DNA from: Candidatus Acidulodesulfobacterium ferriphilum
GTDB taxonomy: Bacteria > SZUA-79 > Acidulodesulfobacterales > Acidulodesulfobacteraceae
NCBI GenBank assembly: GCA_004195035.1
Contig: SGBD01000001.1
Location: 124,001-188,000 of the forward strand
DNA length: 64,000 nucleotides
Direction: 5' to 3'
Both the position numbers and the translations under genes were made by a program. Numbering within the stretch: position 1 is the stretch's first letter; every line of letters begins with the position of its first letter. Under the pieces are notes generated by a model. That model had not been told where the DNA came from. It saw only the letters and a program-made list of their open reading frames with translations, and ran no database searches. Shown here one piece after another: positions 10,792 to 27,620 of this stretch.

Positions 10792-11601
10792 TTAAACAGG
10801 TGAAAATCCCCATTGTTTAAGTATTTTTTGACCCGTCTTGGATAATAATAGCTTCTCAAATTCCTTATTAAGTTTTTCTCTTCTATGACTTACAAAATGA
10901 AATGGAGATTTATTTAATATTGATATTGTAAATTTAGCTCTTGTATTGTATTGCGACGATATTGGTATTATATTGATATCCATGCCACATCTTTTGAGCC
11001 CTGCTAATTGCGACGCATAAAGTATGCCGATATCGGTTTTATCATTTTTCAATAATGGCATAATTAACGCCGGACTTAATAGTTGATTGGCATGATCGGC
11101 TATTTTATTAAACGCCCCCTGATGTCTTTTATTTATAGCTCTAAACATGTCCATCGTATAATGTCCTGCAGGGCTAAAGTTTGGCGATGCAACGGTCAAG
11201 CTAACATTTTTATTCGTTAATTTGCTAATTAGGTTAGATTTGGTAATTCCTGCCTGATTAGCATAAGGAGTGGCTGCAGCTAAGTAGTCATACGCAAATA
11301 CCTTGTATGAATTTATAGCGGCCACCTCCATTAAATCATCTTGATATTTTTCATTTGAAGCTATATATATATCCGGCGGTACACCGCCTAATATTCCAAC
11401 TCTAAATACACCTGATGCCGAAAACTCGTAATTCATTTTAACCCCGTGATGTTCTTTCTCAAATATATTGCCGATGATATGCAAAGGTTTTGCAACAGCA
11501 TCTGATGCAAAAATCCTTATTAAAGTGCGGGCATTTGCTCGAGGTATGTAAAAAAAAGTGCTAAATAAAATAAGGATAATTAAAAAAAATATTTTTTTCA
11601 T
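10792..11601 (-). CDS. ModA-like periplasmic oxyanion-binding protein, orphan
   Basis: The 269-residue product has a signal peptide (cleavage probably after RANA, residue 24) and the fold of the molybdate/tungstate-binding ModA/WtpA family. Family motifs are visible: FSASGVFRVGILGGVPPDIY matches the ASGxLxxQIxxGxPxDxF block, SPAGHYTMD matches PAGxY, and DIGILYASQ matches the late oxyanion-site block. No permease or ATPase gene is adjacent. It is the last gene of a cluster of periplasmic sulfur proteins. The ligand could be molybdate, but a sulfur oxyanion or a role as ligand-presenting partner of the nearby histidine kinase are open alternatives. Confidence 0.8.
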   Translation of the reverse strand: MKKIFFLIILILFSTFFYIPRANARTLIRIFASDAVAKPLHIIGNIFEKEHHGVKMNYEFSASGVFRVGILGGVPPDIYIASNEKYQDDLMEVAAINSYKVFAYDYLAAATPYANQAGITKSNLISKLTNKNVSLTVASPNFSPAGHYTMDMFRAINKRHQGAFNKIADHANQLLSPALIMPLLKNDKTDIGILYASQLAGLKRCGMDINIIPISSQYNTRAKFTISILNKSPFHFVSHRREKLNKEFEKLLLSKTGQKILKQWGFSPV

Positions 11602-11683: not shown

Positions 11684-12181
11684 TTACCAACCTATATTAA
11701 AATAAGCATACCCTTGTTCCTCTTTTTTTATTATGTAGAATATACCGCTTGGATAAGCAACTCCAGCAAAAGGAAACAATTCATTTTTCTTAACATGAAA
11801 AGCAACTAAAGCCGCATGACATGCTAAAAATCTCACGCCTAATTCGCTTAACCTTTTAATTTTATTATAATTTGCTGCATCGTATTTTTTCATCAGATAA
11901 TGTATTGCAGGACCTGGAGCTACAACAACCTCTTTTACATGCACATTGTGGCCTAATGCGGACATAAGATTATGCGTCAGCTGTAGCGTAAAAAGCCCAT
12001 ATTTTTTTGGATTAAACGGAGCCTGCCAAACGGCTTTCAATGCGTGATGCTTAAAATATTGATAAGAGCGCCCGTTAACGGGAACGCTATTTTTTGCAAA
12101 TGCCCGTATAGGCAGTAAATACAATGTTATTGCGAACACCAATAACATTACAAATAAACTTAATTTTCTTAAGTTCATCAT
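11684..12181 (-). CDS. Periplasmic DsrE-family protein
   Basis: The 165-residue protein starts with a hydrophobic signal sequence ending near RAFAK (residue 30), then has the DsrE/DsrF/TusD-like fold: a strand VKEVVVAPGPAIHYL and the helix-strand-Cys block LSELGVRFLACHAAL. Cysteine 121 is the only cysteine and is placed where sulfur-carrying DsrE/TusD proteins bear their persulfide. The well-known DsrEFH and TusBCD carriers are cytoplasmic; here an export signal puts the protein with SoxYZ and a thioredoxin. A persulfide-carrier or sulfane-sulfur chaperone role is inferred. It is 70 bp after soxZ. Confidence 0.78.
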   Translation of the reverse strand: MMNLRKLSLFVMLLVFAITLYLLPIRAFAKNSVPVNGRSYQYFKHHALKAVWQAPFNPKKYGLFTLQLTHNLMSALGHNVHVKEVVVAPGPAIHYLMKKYDAANYNKIKRLSELGVRFLACHAALVAFHVKKNELFPFAGVAYPSGIFYIIKKEEQGYAYFNIGW

Positions 12182-12251: not shown

Positions 12252-12590
12252 TTAAACTACATTTATCATAACTGTTTTTTTATAAACATTATGATGGGTA
12301 TCGTACATAACGAACTCTAACGGCGCTTTTTTGTCCGCTTTTAAATAAAAAGCAAGAAATGGGTTTGCGGAAATACCTGTCCCATAATGACAGGTTGTGA
12401 TTAATTTTTTATCGTAATAAATATCAACCTTATTAATAATCCACATAGGTATTATTTTTCCTGTTTTTGGGTTTTTAACAAGACCTGTATCCATAGGATG
12501 CTTAGTTAAGCTCAACACCTTTATTATTTTTCCCATTTTCACCCTGCTGGGGACTCTAACTAAAATTGTGCCTAATTTCATATTTTTCAC
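12252..12590 (-). CDS. soxZ: Sulfur-oxidation carrier subunit SoxZ
   Basis: SoxZ pairs with SoxY to form the periplasmic carrier on which sulfur is bound during thiosulfate oxidation. The 112 residues match the family along their length, notably KHPMDTGLVKNPKTGKIIP near residues 31-49, INKVDIYYDKKL and the hallmark SANPFLAFYLKA. It has no signal peptide, as expected, because SoxZ is exported together with Tat-targeted SoxY. It follows soxY by 46 bp. No soxB, soxAX or soxCD lies in this window. Confidence 0.92.
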   Translation of the reverse strand: MKNMKLGTILVRVPSRVKMGKIIKVLSLTKHPMDTGLVKNPKTGKIIPMWIINKVDIYYDKKLITTCHYGTGISANPFLAFYLKADKKAPLEFVMYDTHHNVYKKTVMINVV

Positions 12591-12636: not shown

Positions 12637-13161
12637 TTAACAGCCGCCGACTGTCACTTTAACGAACTTTCTTCCACCATAAACGCTCCCATCGGAATAT
12701 TCGGCAAGGATCTGGACATAAGATTCCTGCTGAAGCTTTATCCTTGTGGATATATAAGCTTTCCCATTGGCAGGCGAAATGTCAAATGACCCTTGAACAG
12801 AGTGTGGATTATTAAGGTCGTATATGTAAAATGTTTTAAGATATTTTTGCGGCTTCATCGGTAGCCCTACCTCCATGGTTAGCGGAACCATAGCACCGTT
12901 TTGAGCAATTAACGGAAGCCTTATTTTTGGAATTAAAAGTTTCTCTTCAGGCGTCGGCGTGCCTTTAACCCATGTAACTTTTTTACCGTTAACTTCTTTA
13001 ACATAAGCTTTGTTGATTTTAATGTGTTTAATTAAGGTTTTTTTACGCTTGGCGAAGGCTTTTCCAGCTTCCCCTAAGATTACATCCGAACCAATTATTA
13101 CTGCAGTGCCTGCCATGGCAGTTTTCTTAATAAAATCTCTTCTCGAAACATGATCGTTCAT
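12637..13161 (-). CDS. soxY: Sulfur-oxidation carrier subunit SoxY, ending in GGC
   Basis: SoxY carries pathway intermediates on a cysteine at the end of a flexible C-terminal arm. The 174-residue product has a twin-arginine signal (SRRDFIKK near residue 5), and the SoxY domain includes PLIAQNGAMVPLTMEV. It ends VTVGGC and then TAA, so the carrier cysteine is the last residue; classical SoxY proteins end GGCGG. The next gene is soxZ, and upstream are a periplasmic thioredoxin and CcdA, which could keep the cysteine reduced. Confidence 0.9.
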   Translation of the reverse strand: MNDHVSRRDFIKKTAMAGTAVIIGSDVILGEAGKAFAKRKKTLIKHIKINKAYVKEVNGKKVTWVKGTPTPEEKLLIPKIRLPLIAQNGAMVPLTMEVGLPMKPQKYLKTFYIYDLNNPHSVQGSFDISPANGKAYISTRIKLQQESYVQILAEYSDGSVYGGRKFVKVTVGGC

Positions 13162-13243: not shown

Positions 13244-13750
13244 TCATTGGGCGGGGCCCGCAAATTTCCTCAATGTTTCTACTTTATATCTGCCGCTGCC
13301 TATCCATTTTGCTACAAGCAAAAAGTCTTTTGCATTCCAGTATCCCGGCAAAACAAATATCTTTTTATAAGACGGGCTGAAAAAAATATCGTGCGGAACT
13401 CCCGTAACATGAAAAAGCGCCGCAATCTGCGCACCGGACATCATTTTTCCGTTAAAATATTCCGTGGTCCTGTTGCTGTATATGTCAACCATAACGGGAT
13501 GAAAATGCTTGTTAATATAACCTATAAAATCCTTGTCGGTAAAAACATGCTTATCCATCCTTATGCAGTAGGCGCATGTAGGATAATAGAAATGAACCAA
13601 AAAGTATTTTTTATCCGTCTTATTGCGCTTAATGGCAGCGCCAAGGCTCTCCCAGTGAATTTTATCGGAAGCGGAGGCTGTCTTAGGCAAGATTAATGTT
13701 AAAATACATAGTAAAAATAAAAATGCCGTTAATAATCTTTTTGGTTTCAT
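13244..13750 (-). CDS. Periplasmic thioredoxin-like protein (SoxW-like)
   Basis: The 168-residue protein has a signal sequence (residues 1-28) and a thioredoxin fold with redox motif CAYC (59-62) in FYYPTCAYCIRMD and the cis-proline loop near GVPHDIFF. This is the SoxW/thioredoxin_7-like type. It starts 13 bp after the ccdA stop and precedes soxY. In known systems CcdA passes electrons across the membrane to such a thioredoxin, which reduces SoxY, so the order ccdA-trx-soxY-soxZ suggests a dedicated reducing path. The SoxW assignment is from context. Confidence 0.85.
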   Translation of the reverse strand: MKPKRLLTAFLFLLCILTLILPKTASASDKIHWESLGAAIKRNKTDKKYFLVHFYYPTCAYCIRMDKHVFTDKDFIGYINKHFHPVMVDIYSNRTTEYFNGKMMSGAQIAALFHVTGVPHDIFFSPSYKKIFVLPGYWNAKDFLLVAKWIGSGRYKVETLRKFAGPAQ

Positions 13751-13762
13751 AATCTTTTTAAG

Positions 13763-14485
13763 TTATAGAGAGTTTATTATATGCACGGAAAGCAGTTCGA
13801 AATTTCCGGTAATGGTAAGAATGCCCATTAAGATTAAAAATATTCCGGAGACTACCGAAAATAATCTTAAATAGCCCTTTATTCTTTTGAAAAATGCCAT
13901 AAAATATGCCAGAAATAAGCCGGCCAAAATAAACGGCAGTCCGAGCCCGAGGCTGAAGACGGATAAAAGTTCGACTGCCCTCGTTAAAGACGAGCCGATA
14001 GAGGTATAAAGAACGATGGAAGCAAGGATAGGTCCTACGCACGGAACCCACCCCGCCGCAAACGCAACCCCCAGAAATAACGCCCCCAGTATATGCCCGC
14101 CCCTTTTTTTCCATGGAAGAATATTAACCTCCCTGCTTAAAAAACCCAACCTAAATAAGCCGAGGCAGTATAACCCGAAAAGAATAATTACGATGCCGCC
14201 GACTATTCTTACCGTATTTAGATTAGATTTAAGGAAACCGCTGAATATCGTAACGGAACCCATGCCGAGGGCTACGAAAACAATGGAAAATCCTATTACG
14301 AAAGCAAGCGATGCGGTAAAAACCGCTATCATATTCTTGTAATTTTTTTCGGAAGTAATGGTTTCGACGCTGACGCCGCTTATAAACGCGATATATCCGG
14401 GTATTATCGGTATGATGCACGGAGAGAAGAAAGCCAATAACCCGCCGAAAAAAGCAATACCGTAAGTTAGATTAAGATGAAACAT
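13763..14485 (-). CDS. ccdA: CcdA/DsbD-like transmembrane electron-transfer protein
   Basis: The 240-residue protein has six hydrophobic segments and the two conserved CcdA cysteines, in FFSPCIIPIIPGY (C23) and GWVPCVGPIL (about 148). CcdA moves reducing equivalents from cytoplasmic thioredoxin to periplasmic thiol proteins. It is the first gene of the cluster leading to thioredoxin, soxY, soxZ, DsrE and ModA-like. About 100 bp upstream is a consensus sigma-54 promoter, with two palindromes further upstream. A strong AAGGAGG lies 14 bases ahead of the start codon. Confidence 0.92.
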   Translation of the reverse strand: MFHLNLTYGIAFFGGLLAFFSPCIIPIIPGYIAFISGVSVETITSEKNYKNMIAVFTASLAFVIGFSIVFVALGMGSVTIFSGFLKSNLNTVRIVGGIVIILFGLYCLGLFRLGFLSREVNILPWKKRGGHILGALFLGVAFAAGWVPCVGPILASIVLYTSIGSSLTRAVELLSVFSLGLGLPFILAGLFLAYFMAFFKRIKGYLRLFSVVSGIFLILMGILTITGNFELLSVHIINSL

Positions 14486-14587
14486 AATTAATTTAGATGC
14501 CTCCTTAAAATGCTTATTATTGCTTATTATTACTGTTAATGATTTAAAATAATGATTTTAGGTTAAACCTTAAATTCATTATTATGT

Positions 14588-14603
14588 TGCAAAAATAATG
14601 CCA
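14588..14603 (-). promoter_or_regulatory. Sigma-54 (-24/-12) promoter of the ccdA-sox operon
   Basis: On the minus strand the sequence is TGGCATTATTTTTGCA, matching the RpoN consensus TGGCAC-N5-TTGC at all but one position, with exact GG-N10-GC spacing. Transcription would start about 12 bases past the GC, near 14577, leaving a leader of roughly 90 bases before ccdA. The neighbouring regulator belongs to the sigma-54-activator class, which makes a chance match less likely. Confidence 0.8.
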
Positions 14604-14651
14604 TTTTCAAGGCGCAGTTAAAATATGAATCCGATAGAATTCTGCCGCAAC

Positions 14652-14671
14652 ATTGGCCGTTTTGGGACAAT
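14652..14671. promoter_or_regulatory. Upstream activator site 1 (imperfect palindrome)
   Basis: ATTGGCCG, TTTT, GGGACAAT: the right arm is identical to that of the perfect palindrome 33 bp away, and the left arm matches it at 6 of 8 positions. Its centre is about 58 bp upstream of the -24 element. Confidence 0.65.
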
Positions 14672-14682
14672 TTTTAATTCCA

Positions 14683-14706
14683 TAATTGTCCCTTTTGGGA
14701 CAATTA
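14683..14706. promoter_or_regulatory. Upstream activator site 2 (perfect palindrome)
   Basis: Arms TAATTGTCCC and GGGACAATTA flank TTTT with no mismatch. The centre lies 33 bp (about three helical turns) from site 1 and about 91 bp upstream of the -24 element. Paired dyads at this spacing and distance are typical of enhancer sites for NtrC-type activators; the likely ligand is the regulator encoded immediately upstream. Confidence 0.7.
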
Positions 14707-14794: not shown

Positions 14795-15008
14795 CCCAAA
14801 ATTGCCGATAGAAACCGTTAAAATGGCTTTAAAGTTATATGAACACTGGATTCCCGCTTTCGCGGGAATGACTTTGCAGGTTTTTAGGTTTTCACCCCAC
14901 GGGTGTCATTCCTGTGCAGGCAGGAAAGTTTAGGATAAACTTCACGAGACCAAAGGTCGAGAGCGAAGCGTTAATCCAGATTTAAAATTTTCTATCGGCA
15001 ATTTTGGG
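14795..15008. repeat. MITE-like element, 214 bp, 20-bp perfect terminal inverted repeats
   Basis: The left end CCCAAAATTGCCGATAG continues to 20 bases and is matched perfectly by the right end (14989-15008). Inside are CTGGATTCCCGC-TTTC-GCGGGAATGAC, GTGTCATTCCTG, and a block of about 60 bases (AAAGTTTAGGATAAAC to TTAATCCAGATTTA) shared with the 21.4-kb copy. The right end abuts the stop codon of the response regulator. There is no coding capacity. The rest of the gap (14486-14794) holds the sigma-54 promoter and activator sites. Confidence 0.85.
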
Positions 15009-16367
15009 TTATTTAAGCCTGAAAAGGCCGTATTTTTTCACTTTTGTTATTAACTGCTTTCTTGATATGCCGAGCGAAATCGCCGTTTTAGTTTGATTGT
15101 AATTATTTTTTTTAAGCGCATTTTTAATTAAATTAATTTCCACTTCATCGAGCTTTATATCGCCCTCGTCCGAACCTGTTAAGTTTTTATATGTTTGAAT
15201 CTGTTTGGAAAACATAGTCTTTGGTAAACTCGGCGGCTCGATTACATCCGAAGTAGCAACAACAACGGCTCTTTCGATAATATTTTCAAGTTCCCTTATA
15301 TTTCCCGGAAAATCGTAACTCATCAAAATATTAATCGTATCTTTCGATATGGCCTTAATATTTTTCTTATTAACGGCGCTATATTTTCCGACAAAGAAAT
15401 TGGCAAGGGCTGGGATGTCGTCTCTTCTTTCACGAAGCGGAGGTATTTTAAAATGTAAAACATTTATCCTGTAAAAAAGGTCTTCCCTGAATTTTTTTTC
15501 GATAACGTTTTCCTCCAAATTAACATTTGTAGCACATATAATTCTTGCATTAAGCTCTATTTTTAAGTTAGAACCGAGCCTTGAAAATTCTTTTTCCTGT
15601 ATTACCCTGAGGAGCTTTGCCTGCATCGCAAAGGGCATTTCCCCTATTTCGTCTAAAAAAAGCGAGCCGCCGTTTACAATCTCAAATTTGCCTTTTTGCG
15701 TAAATGACGCTCCGGTAAACGAACCTTTTTCGTGTCCGAATAGTTCGCTTTCCATAAGGTCTATCGGAATGGCGCTTAAATTTATCGGCACAAAATCACC
15801 TTTTCTTTCCGAAAGGAAATGTATTATTTTGGCTAAAACTTCCTTGCCTGTCCCAGTTTCGCCGGTTATCAGAACATTTGAAGCGGATTTGGAGGTTAAA
15901 ACGGCTTCTTTTAAAATTTCCTCCATTTCATTACTTTTAAATATAAAATCTTTTCTGATTTTTTCTATGTTTTCATTATGAAAGTCATCGCTAATCTTTT
16001 TGGGGTTTCTTTTTTGCAGGGCTATTTTTAAATTTTCGATTAGCCCGTCTATATCGACGGGCTTTGAAATAAAATCGTCGGCTCCGAGTTTCATGGCGTC
16101 AACCGCCTGTTTTATTGTCCCGAATGCCGTAATTACGATAAATATTACATCTTTATCGAATATTCTTATTTTGGACAAAAGGTCTATACCGCTCATCCCC
16201 TGCAATTTTAAATCGCAAAGTATAATGTCATGCCGCTTTTCGTTAAAGAGATTAAATCCTTCTTCAGCGCTCAGAGCAGTATCGACAAAAAAACCGCGGC
16301 TGGAAAGATTTAAGCTTACCGTTCTTAAAAGATTTTTTTCATCATCGATTAATAATATTTTCTTCAT
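15009..16367 (-). CDS. NtrC-family sigma-54-dependent response regulator
   Basis: The 452-residue protein has a receiver domain (acidic pocket DDE at 8-10, phospho-acceptor D52), a sigma-54-interacting AAA+ domain (Walker A GETGTGKE at 169-176; GSFTGA at 215-220, a one-residue variant of GAFTGA) and a C-terminal Fis-type helix-turn-helix (TKTAISLGISRKQLITKVKKYG). It activates RpoN promoters when phosphorylated. It overlaps its partner kinase by 4 bp. Downstream, beyond a MITE-like repeat, are two palindromes and a sigma-54 promoter, so the ccdA-sox operon is the likely target. Confidence 0.93.
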   Translation of the reverse strand: MKKILLIDDEKNLLRTVSLNLSSRGFFVDTALSAEEGFNLFNEKRHDIILCDLKLQGMSGIDLLSKIRIFDKDVIFIVITAFGTIKQAVDAMKLGADDFISKPVDIDGLIENLKIALQKRNPKKISDDFHNENIEKIRKDFIFKSNEMEEILKEAVLTSKSASNVLITGETGTGKEVLAKIIHFLSERKGDFVPINLSAIPIDLMESELFGHEKGSFTGASFTQKGKFEIVNGGSLFLDEIGEMPFAMQAKLLRVIQEKEFSRLGSNLKIELNARIICATNVNLEENVIEKKFREDLFYRINVLHFKIPPLRERRDDIPALANFFVGKYSAVNKKNIKAISKDTINILMSYDFPGNIRELENIIERAVVVATSDVIEPPSLPKTMFSKQIQTYKNLTGSDEGDIKLDEVEINLIKNALKKNNYNQTKTAISLGISRKQLITKVKKYGLFRLK

Positions 16368-17773
16368 TTAACGATACCCGACCCGACGGCTTTAGGAATT
16401 ACAAGCACAAACGCGGTTTTATTATCTTTGCTGTAAACATTTATCGTTCCCCCGTGAAGTTTAATTATGCGCATAGATATCGGAAGACCGAGCCCGGAAC
16501 CGTTTTTTTTCGTCGTAAAAAACGGCTTTAATATCTTTTCGATATTCTCTTCGGGTATAACCTCGCCGTTATCGATAATTTCGATATTTATAAAATCGCC
16601 TCTTAAAACCGTTTTTATTTCAATAATTTTATTCCCTGCGTTATATGTTTTATCCATTGCGTTTATTATTAAGTTTAAGATAACCTGTTTAAGCAATTCC
16701 GGGTCTCCCTTAATGACAGGCAGGTCTTCTTGAAACTCTTTTATTAATTTTATATTTAAATTGTCGATTTCTAATTTTAATATTCTTACCGAATCGTCAA
16801 TCAGCCTGTTTATATTTACCGGAACCAGTTCGGGATTTCTTTGTCTGGAAAAACTTAAAAAATCTACGGTCATTTTATCGAGTCTTTTTACTTCATTATT
16901 TATTATATTGGTAACCTCTAATACTATCTTATTTCTTGTTTCGTGGGATATATACGCGTTTGCGGAAGAAATAATATATATGGCGTTTTTAACCTCATGC
17001 GCTATATTAGCCGACATTTCACCCATAATCGCCATACAATTCAATTCGTTCTTTTCTTTATTCACTAAATCAATCTTTTTCGTATAATCCTCGATTGACA
17101 GCGCCATCGAGCTAATCGCGCTTATAACGCTTCCGATTTCGTCGTTTAACCTTTTCGTGAAACTTATCTTATAATCGCCGTTTTTTATCTTTTCGATATT
17201 TTCCTTTATCTCGAGCAAGGGCTTTGTGATAATAACAGTTATAATATAAAACATAAAAAGCCCTAAGGCTATAAAAATGAGCGCTATCAGCGAAAACCTG
17301 ACCCCGACCCAAAAAACACGGTTATTAGTGGCTTCAATCTCTTTTTTTAAATTAAATTTAATTGCAACAAGCCCCAATATTTTGCCGCCATAGTCAATAT
17401 TTCTGATTAAAACCGAACCGTCTTTTTTTTTATCGTTAACGGGATTATGCGCGGCATAAAGCTTTCCGCTATTCATTATTAGTTTCCCTTCCGGATTATA
17501 TATCGAAATACCCTTGATTATGCGGTAATTTTTTATATTAGACTTTAAATATTTTTTCAAAAACCTAATTTTATTGAAATACAAAGAGTATTTTATTTCC
17601 GAGATTAAGATTCTGGCTATCCTTGTATTTTTTAAATAATGTCTGCCTGATAATGTTTTGTAAATAGTATAAAGAAAGACGGCGTCGCTTAGAAAAATAG
17701 TGAAGAAAAAAATAGCAAAAGCGCTTATTAATATTTTCCATTTAATGCTTAAATTTTTAATAAAATGTTCCAT
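16364..17773 (-). CDS. Membrane sensor histidine kinase (NtrB/ZraS-like)
   Basis: The 469-residue protein has a first membrane helix at about 13-36, an extracytoplasmic sensor region of about 115 residues (36-150, no cysteine), a second helix at about 155-182, HAMP at about 182-235, and HisKA with the phospho-acceptor in IAHEVKNAI (H259). The ATPase domain has NLIINAMDKT, DNGEVIPEENI and GSGLGLPISMRI. The signal it senses is unknown; since its probable target encodes periplasmic sulfur proteins, a sulfur compound or the ModA-like protein are candidates. It overlaps the regulator gene by 4 bp. Confidence 0.92.
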   Translation of the reverse strand: MEHFIKNLSIKWKILISAFAIFFFTIFLSDAVFLYTIYKTLSGRHYLKNTRIARILISEIKYSLYFNKIRFLKKYLKSNIKNYRIIKGISIYNPEGKLIMNSGKLYAAHNPVNDKKKDGSVLIRNIDYGGKILGLVAIKFNLKKEIEATNNRVFWVGVRFSLIALIFIALGLFMFYIITVIITKPLLEIKENIEKIKNGDYKISFTKRLNDEIGSVISAISSMALSIEDYTKKIDLVNKEKNELNCMAIMGEMSANIAHEVKNAIYIISSANAYISHETRNKIVLEVTNIINNEVKRLDKMTVDFLSFSRQRNPELVPVNINRLIDDSVRILKLEIDNLNIKLIKEFQEDLPVIKGDPELLKQVILNLIINAMDKTYNAGNKIIEIKTVLRGDFINIEIIDNGEVIPEENIEKILKPFFTTKKNGSGLGLPISMRIIKLHGGTINVYSKDNKTAFVLVIPKAVGSGIVK

Positions 17774-17912: not shown

Positions 17913-18752
17913 TTATTTTATTATATTGTAAACGGTATTATAAGCCTCTTCCGCCGCAAGTCCTTTATGAACGACGGCCTTTACGGCTTTAATCATATTG
18001 ACGGGTTTTTCGGACTGGAATATATTTCTGCCCATATCCACGCCTGCCGCCCCGCGCTTTACGGCATTATACGCAAGCTCCAGAGCCTCCTTTTCACCCG
18101 TCTTTTTCCCTCCGGCAACAACCACCGGAACAGGACAGGTATTTACCACCCTTTCAAAATCATCGCAATAATATGTTTTTACAATGCTTGCTCCGGTTTC
18201 GGCCGCAATCCTGACGGCTAAGGATAGATAGCGGGCATCCCTCGTCATTTCTCTTCCGACCGCCGTTACCGCAAGAACGGGAATGCCGTATCTATTTCCT
18301 TCATCGACCAATCTTGCAAGATTTATTATCCCTTGCTTTTCGTTTTTAGAGCCGATAAATATAGACAAGGCTACGGCGCTCACGTTTAATCTTATCGCAT
18401 CCTCCATAGAAACTGTAATATCTTCGTCCGAAAGGTCGTCTTTCAATATGCTTGTCCCTCCGCTAACCCGCAAAACAATCGGAATATCGATACCCGCATC
18501 GATTTGATTTCTTAATATGCCCCTTGTGAGCATCAGCGAATCCGCATAATTTAAAAGCGGGGTAATAGCGCCTTTAACATCCTCAAGCCCGCCCGTAGGA
18601 CCCATAAAATAACCGTGGTCTATCGCAAGCATGACCGTTCTTTTATCCTTCGGTTTGATAATCCTCGAAAGCCTGTTCTTTAAACCGTAATCCATATACC
18701 CTGCCCCCTTTATAGTTTTAAACTTGTCCCAACCCGCAAGTGAGGGAACCAT
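17913..18752 (-). CDS. lsrF: LsrF-type class I aldolase/thiolase
   Basis: The 279-residue protein resembles LsrF (3-hydroxy-5-phosphonooxypentane-2,4-dione thiolase) of the DhnA/FbaB aldolase group through most of its length: RTVMLAIDHGYFMGPTGGLE, LMLTRGILRN, IVKTYYCDDFERV (the lysine is the expected Schiff-base residue), PVVVAGGKK and GVDMGRNIFQSE. LsrF ends the phospho-AI-2 degradation pathway in enterics. No lsrK, lsrG, lsrR or transporter genes are near, so an autoinducer role is unproven; another sugar-phosphate or acetyl-transfer reaction is possible. It is transcribed alone, 21 bp after the neighbouring small gene. Confidence 0.82.
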   Translation of the reverse strand: MVPSLAGWDKFKTIKGAGYMDYGLKNRLSRIIKPKDKRTVMLAIDHGYFMGPTGGLEDVKGAITPLLNYADSLMLTRGILRNQIDAGIDIPIVLRVSGGTSILKDDLSDEDITVSMEDAIRLNVSAVALSIFIGSKNEKQGIINLARLVDEGNRYGIPVLAVTAVGREMTRDARYLSLAVRIAAETGASIVKTYYCDDFERVVNTCPVPVVVAGGKKTGEKEALELAYNAVKRGAAGVDMGRNIFQSEKPVNMIKAVKAVVHKGLAAEEAYNTVYNIIK

Positions 18753-25808: not shown

Positions 25809-27620
25809 TTAAAACATCCTTTTTTTAATATGCCTTATAGCCCTTTTTGCGTTAAAATCTTTCATTAAATACAGATAATAAACCCTAACCGGTCTAAATT
25901 TAATGTAAATATCCAGCCGGCCGATTTTTTTTATCGATTTAAAATCCTTCTTATATGTCCGCATCGGATTTATAATATATTTGCTATCCATTATAAAGAT
26001 GGCATTCTTTCCGTTTATTTTGTTTAAATTTTGCCACAGGTCGTATTGATTTAAAAACCCCGATATATTATAAATATTCACCGCCGGTTTATAGCCCCCG
26101 TAATACACAAGTTCATCCGCAATAGCATAATGATGCGTTAAAACAAAAAGCGGATGATAAACCGCCTCATATCCTTTATAAACAATACCGATATACCTTG
26201 CCCCTTTCCCCCACCCAAAAAGGTCGTTTGTTATGTCGGCCGTTTTGGGTTTTCCGGGTATATGGGGAATTAATGAAAATATCCAGCGTCTTTTAAGGTT
26301 TTTTTCCTTATCGATATACCTTATTATTTTTCCTATCGGTATCGAATTATAGTATATCTGGTTGTATAATACAAAACTTAAGAAAAAACCGGAAAATATC
26401 GCAAAATACAGATATGATTTGGCGGCCTTCAATTTTAATTTTTCCCACAGTTTTATTTGGCTTCTGCTTTTACTAATCCTATCCGCAACATATCCCATGA
26501 TAGGAAATGCGGACATGTAGCCTATATCCGGCCAGTGAACTAGTATTCTATGGGAATATCCGTTTATAATAAAAAAAACCAGAACAGGAAGCGATAAGCA
26601 GACGGAATACAAAAATCCCCCGGCAATATCCGCGTAAGATGCAGCCTCGGACTTATCTATAAATGGGTCTGATTTCAAATCAGACCCATTTATATTCCTG
26701 CCAAACCATTGCGAAATAAATTTTAAGGAATAAACGAATGTCCCGATTAAAAACAGATAGACGAACGGCGTAACCACTAAAAATTGTCCAAGCCACCCTT
26801 GCATAAATAAAGATATTCCGGGTTTCGGGTGCGAAAAACCGTGCGAGAGCTGAAATTTAAAGGATATAAAATTATGAGTAATATTCCAATAGATTACGGG
26901 CGAAAAAACAAGAAGGGCGGCGGCAAGAGCCAGATACGGATAAAAAGTTTTTAAAACGGCTCTATTTTTTTTAGAAGCTAATAAATATAATAAAACGGAA
27001 GGTGGAATTAAAGCGGCGGTATACTTGCTTAAAAATGCAAGACCTAAAAACAAACCTGCAAGCATCCATAAAATCAGGTTATTACGAAAAAAGGGGGCCG
27101 ATTTTAAATCAGGCCCATTTTTTACATTATTCGAGCTGCCTTTAACGGCTTTATAAAATAATATCAGGAAACACAGGTAGAAAAACAGCAGGGATGCGTC
27201 GGGCAGCATCATAACTGATAGGGCGGTACTAAATATTACCGCCGATAAAAAAAACAAAAAAGCAAAAAAAGACGCCCTCTTATTTTTAAAGAGCAGGTGC
27301 GATAGGTAATATATTAAAAAGCCGTCGAAAAACGAAAAAATAACCGCGCCAAGCCTGACATTAAGCTCGCTTTTTCCAAAAAGCCCCGTAAAAAAATAAA
27401 TAACATAGCCGACGAACGGGGCGTCATCAAGATAACCCAATGACGGCTTTAGCGACCAAACGAAATAGTGGGCTTCGTCATTGCCTAAGTTTAAAGTGGA
27501 GGCAAGGTGCAGATGAACGATAAATGCAAGTATAGATAATGAAACCAAATAAAATTCGTACCTGTACCTGCCGTAATATGTATTAAAATAATCCAAAATT
27601 TTGTCTATTGTGCTTTTCAA
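25809..27620 (-). CDS. GT39/ArnT-like membrane glycosyltransferase with two palindrome insertions
   Basis: The 603-residue protein has about ten membrane helices, and an early loop motif LGNDEAHYFVWSLKP with the acidic pair typical of GT-C/PMT family catalytic loops. It probably transfers a sugar from a polyprenol-phosphate donor made by its neighbour to lipid or protein in the periplasm. It is somewhat longer than common relatives. Two in-frame palindromic repeats encode similar loops, NGPDLKSAPF (about 168) and NGSDLKSDPF (about 312). It overlaps the upstream gene by 38 bp. Confidence 0.85.
   Translation of the reverse strand: MKSTIDKILDYFNTYYGRYRYEFYLVSLSILAFIVHLHLASTLNLGNDEAHYFVWSLKPSLGYLDDAPFVGYVIYFFTGLFGKSELNVRLGAVIFSFFDGFLIYYLSHLLFKNKRASFFAFLFFLSAVIFSTALSVMMLPDASLLFFYLCFLILFYKAVKGSSNNVKNGPDLKSAPFFRNNLILWMLAGLFLGLAFLSKYTAALIPPSVLLYLLASKKNRAVLKTFYPYLALAAALLVFSPVIYWNITHNFISFKFQLSHGFSHPKPGISLFMQGWLGQFLVVTPFVYLFLIGTFVYSLKFISQWFGRNINGSDLKSDPFIDKSEAASYADIAGGFLYSVCLSLPVLVFFIINGYSHRILVHWPDIGYMSAFPIMGYVADRISKSRSQIKLWEKLKLKAAKSYLYFAIFSGFFLSFVLYNQIYYNSIPIGKIIRYIDKEKNLKRRWIFSLIPHIPGKPKTADITNDLFGWGKGARYIGIVYKGYEAVYHPLFVLTHHYAIADELVYYGGYKPAVNIYNISGFLNQYDLWQNLNKINGKNAIFIMDSKYIINPMRTYKKDFKSIKKIGRLDIYIKFRPVRVYYLYLMKDFNAKRAIRHIKKRMF
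26659..26693. repeat. 35-bp perfect palindrome inside the GT39 gene
   Basis: The 17-base arms (left arm ATAAATGGGTCTGATTT) match exactly around a central C. It is in frame and encodes part of NGSDLKSDPF. It is the same family as the terminator at 23739-23775. Confidence 0.85.
27087..27123. repeat. 37-bp palindrome inside the GT39 gene
   Basis: The 18-base arms around a central T match at 15 of 18 positions; the left arm is six A then GGGGGCCGATTT. It is read in the same frame as the 26659 copy and encodes NGPDLKSAPF. Confidence 0.8.

Follow-up and report, generated by a model that had tools for sequence, protein, structure and literature searches.

What controls the ccdA-sox operon of Candidatus Acidulodesulfobacterium ferriphilum? 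In the window analysed here (the whole 64,000-nucleotide stretch of contig SGBD01000001.1, positions 124,001 to 188,000), genes for a kinase and an NtrC-type regulator lie directly upstream of sox genes, a layout shared by relatives, and the 523-bp intergenic region between the regulator gene and ccdA carries a -24/-12 element and a pair of dyads. Judged from the DNA and from its conservation, activation of the ccdA-sox operon through sigma-54 by this adjacent two-component system appears well supported, and the locus very probably holds a TspS/TspR-type sigma-54 switch dedicated to the sox operon.

Architecture of the ccdA-sox locus

On the minus strand, the genes run in the order aldolase, kinase, regulator, intergenic region, ccdA, thioredoxin-like, soxY, soxZ, DsrE-like and ModA-like solute-binding protein (SBP; Table 1). 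The gaps of 12–82 bp between the genes from ccdA to that for the SBP suggest that these form one operon. From what is known of these families, the probable role of CcdA and the thioredoxin is to maintain the SoxY cysteine in its reduced form. The SoxY protein ends in VGGC instead of the usual GGCGG and scores under the SoxY equivalog cut-off. Two copies of soxB (L286 and L287) are found outside the window operon, a complete one near a contig end (G000:C4:225158-226849) and a second, partial one at a contig start (G000:C6:75-569).

The NtrC-type activator and kinase that an earlier, sequence-only reading had placed upstream are both recognised by their Pfam domains. The regulator consists of a receiver domain, a sigma-54 AAA+ domain and a Fis-type HTH, and displays the features of the NtrC family, including the phospho-acceptor Asp and the Walker A and B motifs, with a contact loop, GSFTGA, that is a variant of GAFTGA. 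The kinase and regulator genes overlap by 4 bp. The genome encodes a single copy of rpoN and about nine full sigma-54 activators.

Table 1. Positions of the features discussed in the text
Feature	Position or locus	Strand	Basis or remark
ModA-like extracellular solute-binding protein, final gene of the probable operon	10792..11601	-	PF13531; TIGR01256 at cutoff
DsrE-like periplasmic protein	11684..12181	-	weak PF02635, below cutoff; paralogs in relatives' sox operons
SoxZ	12252..12590	-	PF08770; TIGR04490 above cutoff
SoxY carrier, Tat signal, C-terminus ...VGGC	12637..13161	-	PF13501; below TIGR04488 cutoff
Periplasmic thioredoxin-like protein	13244..13750	-	PF13098
CcdA/DsbD-TM membrane thiol transporter, operon gene 1	13763..14485	-	PF02683; orthologs found
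Predicted transcription start	14577	-	placed from -12 spacing, 12 nt past -12 C
Sigma-54 -24/-12 promoter element TGGCATTATTTTTGCA	14588..14603	-	GG-N10-GC, sequence read
Putative proximal activator dyad ATTGGCCGTTTTGGGACAAT; minus strand TTGTCCCAAAACGGCCAA	14652..14671	.	imperfect
Putative distal activator dyad TAATTGTCCC-TTTT-GGGACAATTA; minus strand TAATTGTCCCAAAAGGGACAATTA	14683..14706	.	perfect 10-bp arms
NtrC-type response regulator, TspR-like	15009..16367	-	Pfam, motif alignment, tree
Membrane histidine kinase, TspS-like	16364..17773	-	two TM segments, HAMP, HisKA, HATPase; Pfam, topology, H-box
Aldolase	17913-18752	-	upstream of kinase gene
GSFTNA regulators of genus g2	L238, L239, L243, L244, L284, L285		genomes G009, G011, G017b, G015, G004b, G019b

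A -24/-12 element preceded by paired dyads

The minus-strand element with exact GG-N10-GC spacing and the two dyads 33 bp apart had both been claimed from the sequence, and both are borne out. The element is read directly and is the only exact match to TGGCAYN5TTGCW in the window, the 1.87-Mb genome containing 15; the predicted start would leave a leader of 92 nt to ccdA. The centre-to-centre distance of the dyads is exactly 33 bp. The distal dyad is perfect, with exact TGTCCC-N4-GGGACA half-sites, and the proximal one is imperfect, a degenerate copy with two mismatches to TTGTCCCN4GGGACAA. They are positioned 67 bp (proximal) and 100 bp (distal) before the TGG of the -24/-12 element. Centres previously given as 58 and 91 bp upstream are correct when the -24 end is the reference; relative to the predicted start they fall instead at about -85 and -118. 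Among 2,000 first-order Markov (Markov-1) sequences modelled on the intergenic region, a -24/-12 element arose in two, a comparable GC-containing palindrome in one, and both together in none.

The stretch from the regulator stop to the distal dyad includes, at positions 14802-15001, an element of 200 bp with inverted ends of 13 bp, TTGCCGATAGAAA...TTTCTATCGGCAA. As the same region of the relative G002 is shorter by exactly 200 bp, the element looks like a MITE-type insertion. Other repeats of the window include a short palindrome, TTCCCGC...GCGGGAATGA, present three times (14851, 21485 and 48950) and resembled by one in the relative G022, and a perfect 37-bp palindrome with 18-bp arms, TATAAATGGGTCTGATTTCAAATCAGACCCATTTATA, at 26658-26694.

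Conservation of the sites within the family

CcdA orthologs were collected within the family and the sox promoters aligned. Close homologs of the regulator (56% or more identity) occur in 20 of the family's 30 genomes. Both dyads and the -24/-12 element are kept before the sox operons of ten genomes from four clades, with the dyads always 33 bp apart and starting 65–70 bp (proximal) and 98–103 bp (distal) before the TGG. Absence of the sites from orthologous ccdA-sox clusters had been named at the outset as what would speak against a sigma-54 promoter whose two enhancer sites serve the adjacent regulator; their retention before ccdA-sox in these ten genomes strongly supports that reading, in which the regulator is the predicted ligand of the dyads.

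Conservation in the intergenic DNA is strictest at the -24/-12 element, where mean between-clade identity is 0.96 (96%), compared with 0.65–0.66 over the 18-bp dyads, their free 6-bp centres included, and 0.33–0.34 over the spacer and downstream DNA. Other spacings are also seen: a clear dyad lies at 79 bp in four g2 genomes, the two dyads of G021 are spaced by 22 bp, and in each of G003 and G005 a single clear dyad is located farther out.

The sites follow sox

The sites go with sox and not with the regulator gene. In three genomes (G008, G014 and G028) the regulator is parted from ccdA by a divergent gene, and the sites remain beside ccdA; in two others (G009 and G011) the regulator lies on a different contig and the sites still precede ccdA-trx-soxY-soxZ-DUF302-like-soxB, with the -24/-12 element about 390–500 bp upstream of ccdA. 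The regulator of G009 and G011 groups in the tree with the sox-linked g2 regulators. G004b and G015 show a further variant, the first gene encoding a 585-aa protein that is followed by soxYZ and soxB.

These arrangements bear on the possibility that the operon is transcribed mainly from a sigma-70 promoter, or by read-through from the regulator gene, which is located upstream in the same orientation, with the sigma-54 site playing a minor part. We consider this unlikely: it is the -24/-12 element that is most strictly conserved between the genes, and read-through is unlikely in the five genomes just described because a divergent gene or a separate contig intervenes.

Motif specificity and extent of the regulon

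A strict composite pattern of dyads and -24/-12 element matches 10 of the 30 family genomes, every match being at a sox promoter, and neither any of 356 genomes of other families nor the reversed-pattern controls. In the window genome, G009 and G011, a base or the spacing departs from this strict pattern, and these three were recognised by inspection. Within the window genome, the perfect dyad TTGTCCC-N4-GGGACAA occurs once, at the distal site, and the DNA upstream of the other 14 perfect -24/-12 sites contains no dyad scoring 10/12 or better. A wider regulon, as proposed earlier, finds no counterpart in these genome-wide scans for the dyad and for the dyad with -24/-12, which return this site only; by this measure the system resembles a local switch with a single target.

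A relaxed composite scan of named genomes returned at least 120 stretches; most of them come from Massilia, Sphingomonas, Xanthomonas and Bacteroidales and lack sox genes. Since most of the listed matches have no sox genes nearby, the relaxed dyad is not sox-specific; at the level of pattern matches, sigma-54 promoters are commonly preceded by TGTCC-N6-GGACA. Homologs of the regulator in other families (45–53% identity) have neither sox genes nor a convincing UAS within their 1.5-kb flanks, and a plasmid search with the regulator gave only generic EBPs near 40%. A second group of regulator paralogs (L272, L274, L276 and L278, in G004a, G019a, G010 and G017a), each with its own kinase, has no sox genes or matching sites nearby.

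Because TGTCC-N6-GGACA dyads precede sigma-54 promoters in several other EBP lineages, the dyad alone names no binder. The -24/-12 promoter could thus be real and the dyads be bound by another regulator, either one of the other full sigma-54 activators of the genome or a repressor, just as similar dyads serve other EBPs elsewhere. We judge this improbable: all family genomes in which the sites were found in front of sox carry a regulator of the adjacent type as well, usually adjoining, and A. caldus TspR is reported, in the account given by PMC6335251, to bind identical half-sites. The idea that the perfect dyad forms a hairpin terminating transcription of the regulator gene, as its GC-containing stem downstream of the regulator stop might indicate, is scarcely credible, given that the regulator's strand has no T-run after it and that paired copies lie at a fixed distance from -24/-12 and remain with sox when the regulator is elsewhere.

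Proposed mechanism

In the favoured reading, a sigma-54 switch operated by the adjacent two-component system, the membrane kinase would sense a sulfur signal in the periplasm, probably thiosulfate or a related compound (the signal being borrowed from A. caldus), and would phosphorylate the NtrC-type regulator. Regulator dimers would then occupy the two dyads, three helical turns apart on the same face of the DNA, and oligomerise. The bound regulator would loop to RpoN-polymerase at -24/-12 and open the promoter at the expense of ATP, allowing transcription from near 14577 through ccdA-trx-soxY-soxZ-dsrE-like-SBP.

The g2 orthologs of the regulator have GSFTNA in place of GAFTGA (Table 1), and their own sox promoters retain the -24/-12 element; paralogs in three of the GSFTNA-bearing g2 genomes retain GSYTGA. 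A more far-reaching and rather doubtful proposal is that TspSR, UAS and sigma-54 constitute an old cross-phylum device of soxYZ operons, with two sites in strict helical phasing, and that the g2 activator may work through its altered loop on an intact target promoter.

Comparison with known systems

Outside the family, the sole on-target match among the matches listed comes from a Sulfurihydrogenibium sp. ARK-13 MAG (L206). The order there is PhnD-like binding protein, kinase, regulator, paired dyads, -24/-12 element, cytochrome-like protein, thioredoxin, soxY and soxZ. The regulator is 49% identical and sister to those of the family (tree support 96/94), and the paired dyads are 22 bp apart.

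RpoN control of soxYZ had been thought new, but a precedent exists in Acidithiobacillus caldus, where the sigma-54-dependent TspS/TspR system, located upstream of sox-II, is reported to bind the UAS TGTCCCAAATGGGACA and to activate sox, with thiosulfate as its proposed signal (PMC6335251, citing Li et al. 2017); such control of sox by sigma-54 and TspSR in A. caldus also appears in PMC12194929. As that system is described in these sources, the window shares with it a sigma-54 two-component system upstream of a sox cluster, a sigma-54 promoter and TGTCCC/GGGACA half-sites, which the distal dyad matches exactly, the likeness to TspR resting on layout and on the described UAS, not on protein comparison. 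The window system differs from the one described there in its distinct lineage, in having two sites at a fixed 33-bp spacing, and in an operon led by ccdA and thioredoxin that contains soxYZ without soxXAB.

Like ZraSR/HydHG and AtoSC, the window system pairs a kinase and an NtrC-type activator with an adjacent sigma-54 target operon. However, its target is a sulfur operon, and the regulator scores below the curated cut-offs for AtoC (423 vs 714 bits) and ZraR (349 vs 760). PrsR of the PEP-CTERM RpoN system PrsK/PrsR is likewise an NtrC-type regulator, and genomes that probably use PrsK/PrsR contain TGTCC-N6-GGACA-like dyads together with -24/-12; the window regulator, in contrast, reaches 338 bits against the TIGR02915 cut-off of 502.6 and is without a PEP-CTERM target.

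Sox genes have been reported in Ca. Acidulodesulfobacterales (PMC6776010), in a paper whose main text mentions neither two-component systems nor rpoN. Sigma-54 two-component control of sox is known; what is new is the lineage, the double-site geometry and the target operon headed by ccdA and thioredoxin. Beyond Acidithiobacillus and the few other sulfur oxidisers in which it is known, control of this kind reaches a distant lineage, represented mostly by draft genomes, and extends also to a Sulfurihydrogenibium MAG, and the double-site geometry, together with the natural series of promoters and regulators, provides a test set for activator placement on DNA and for the signal.
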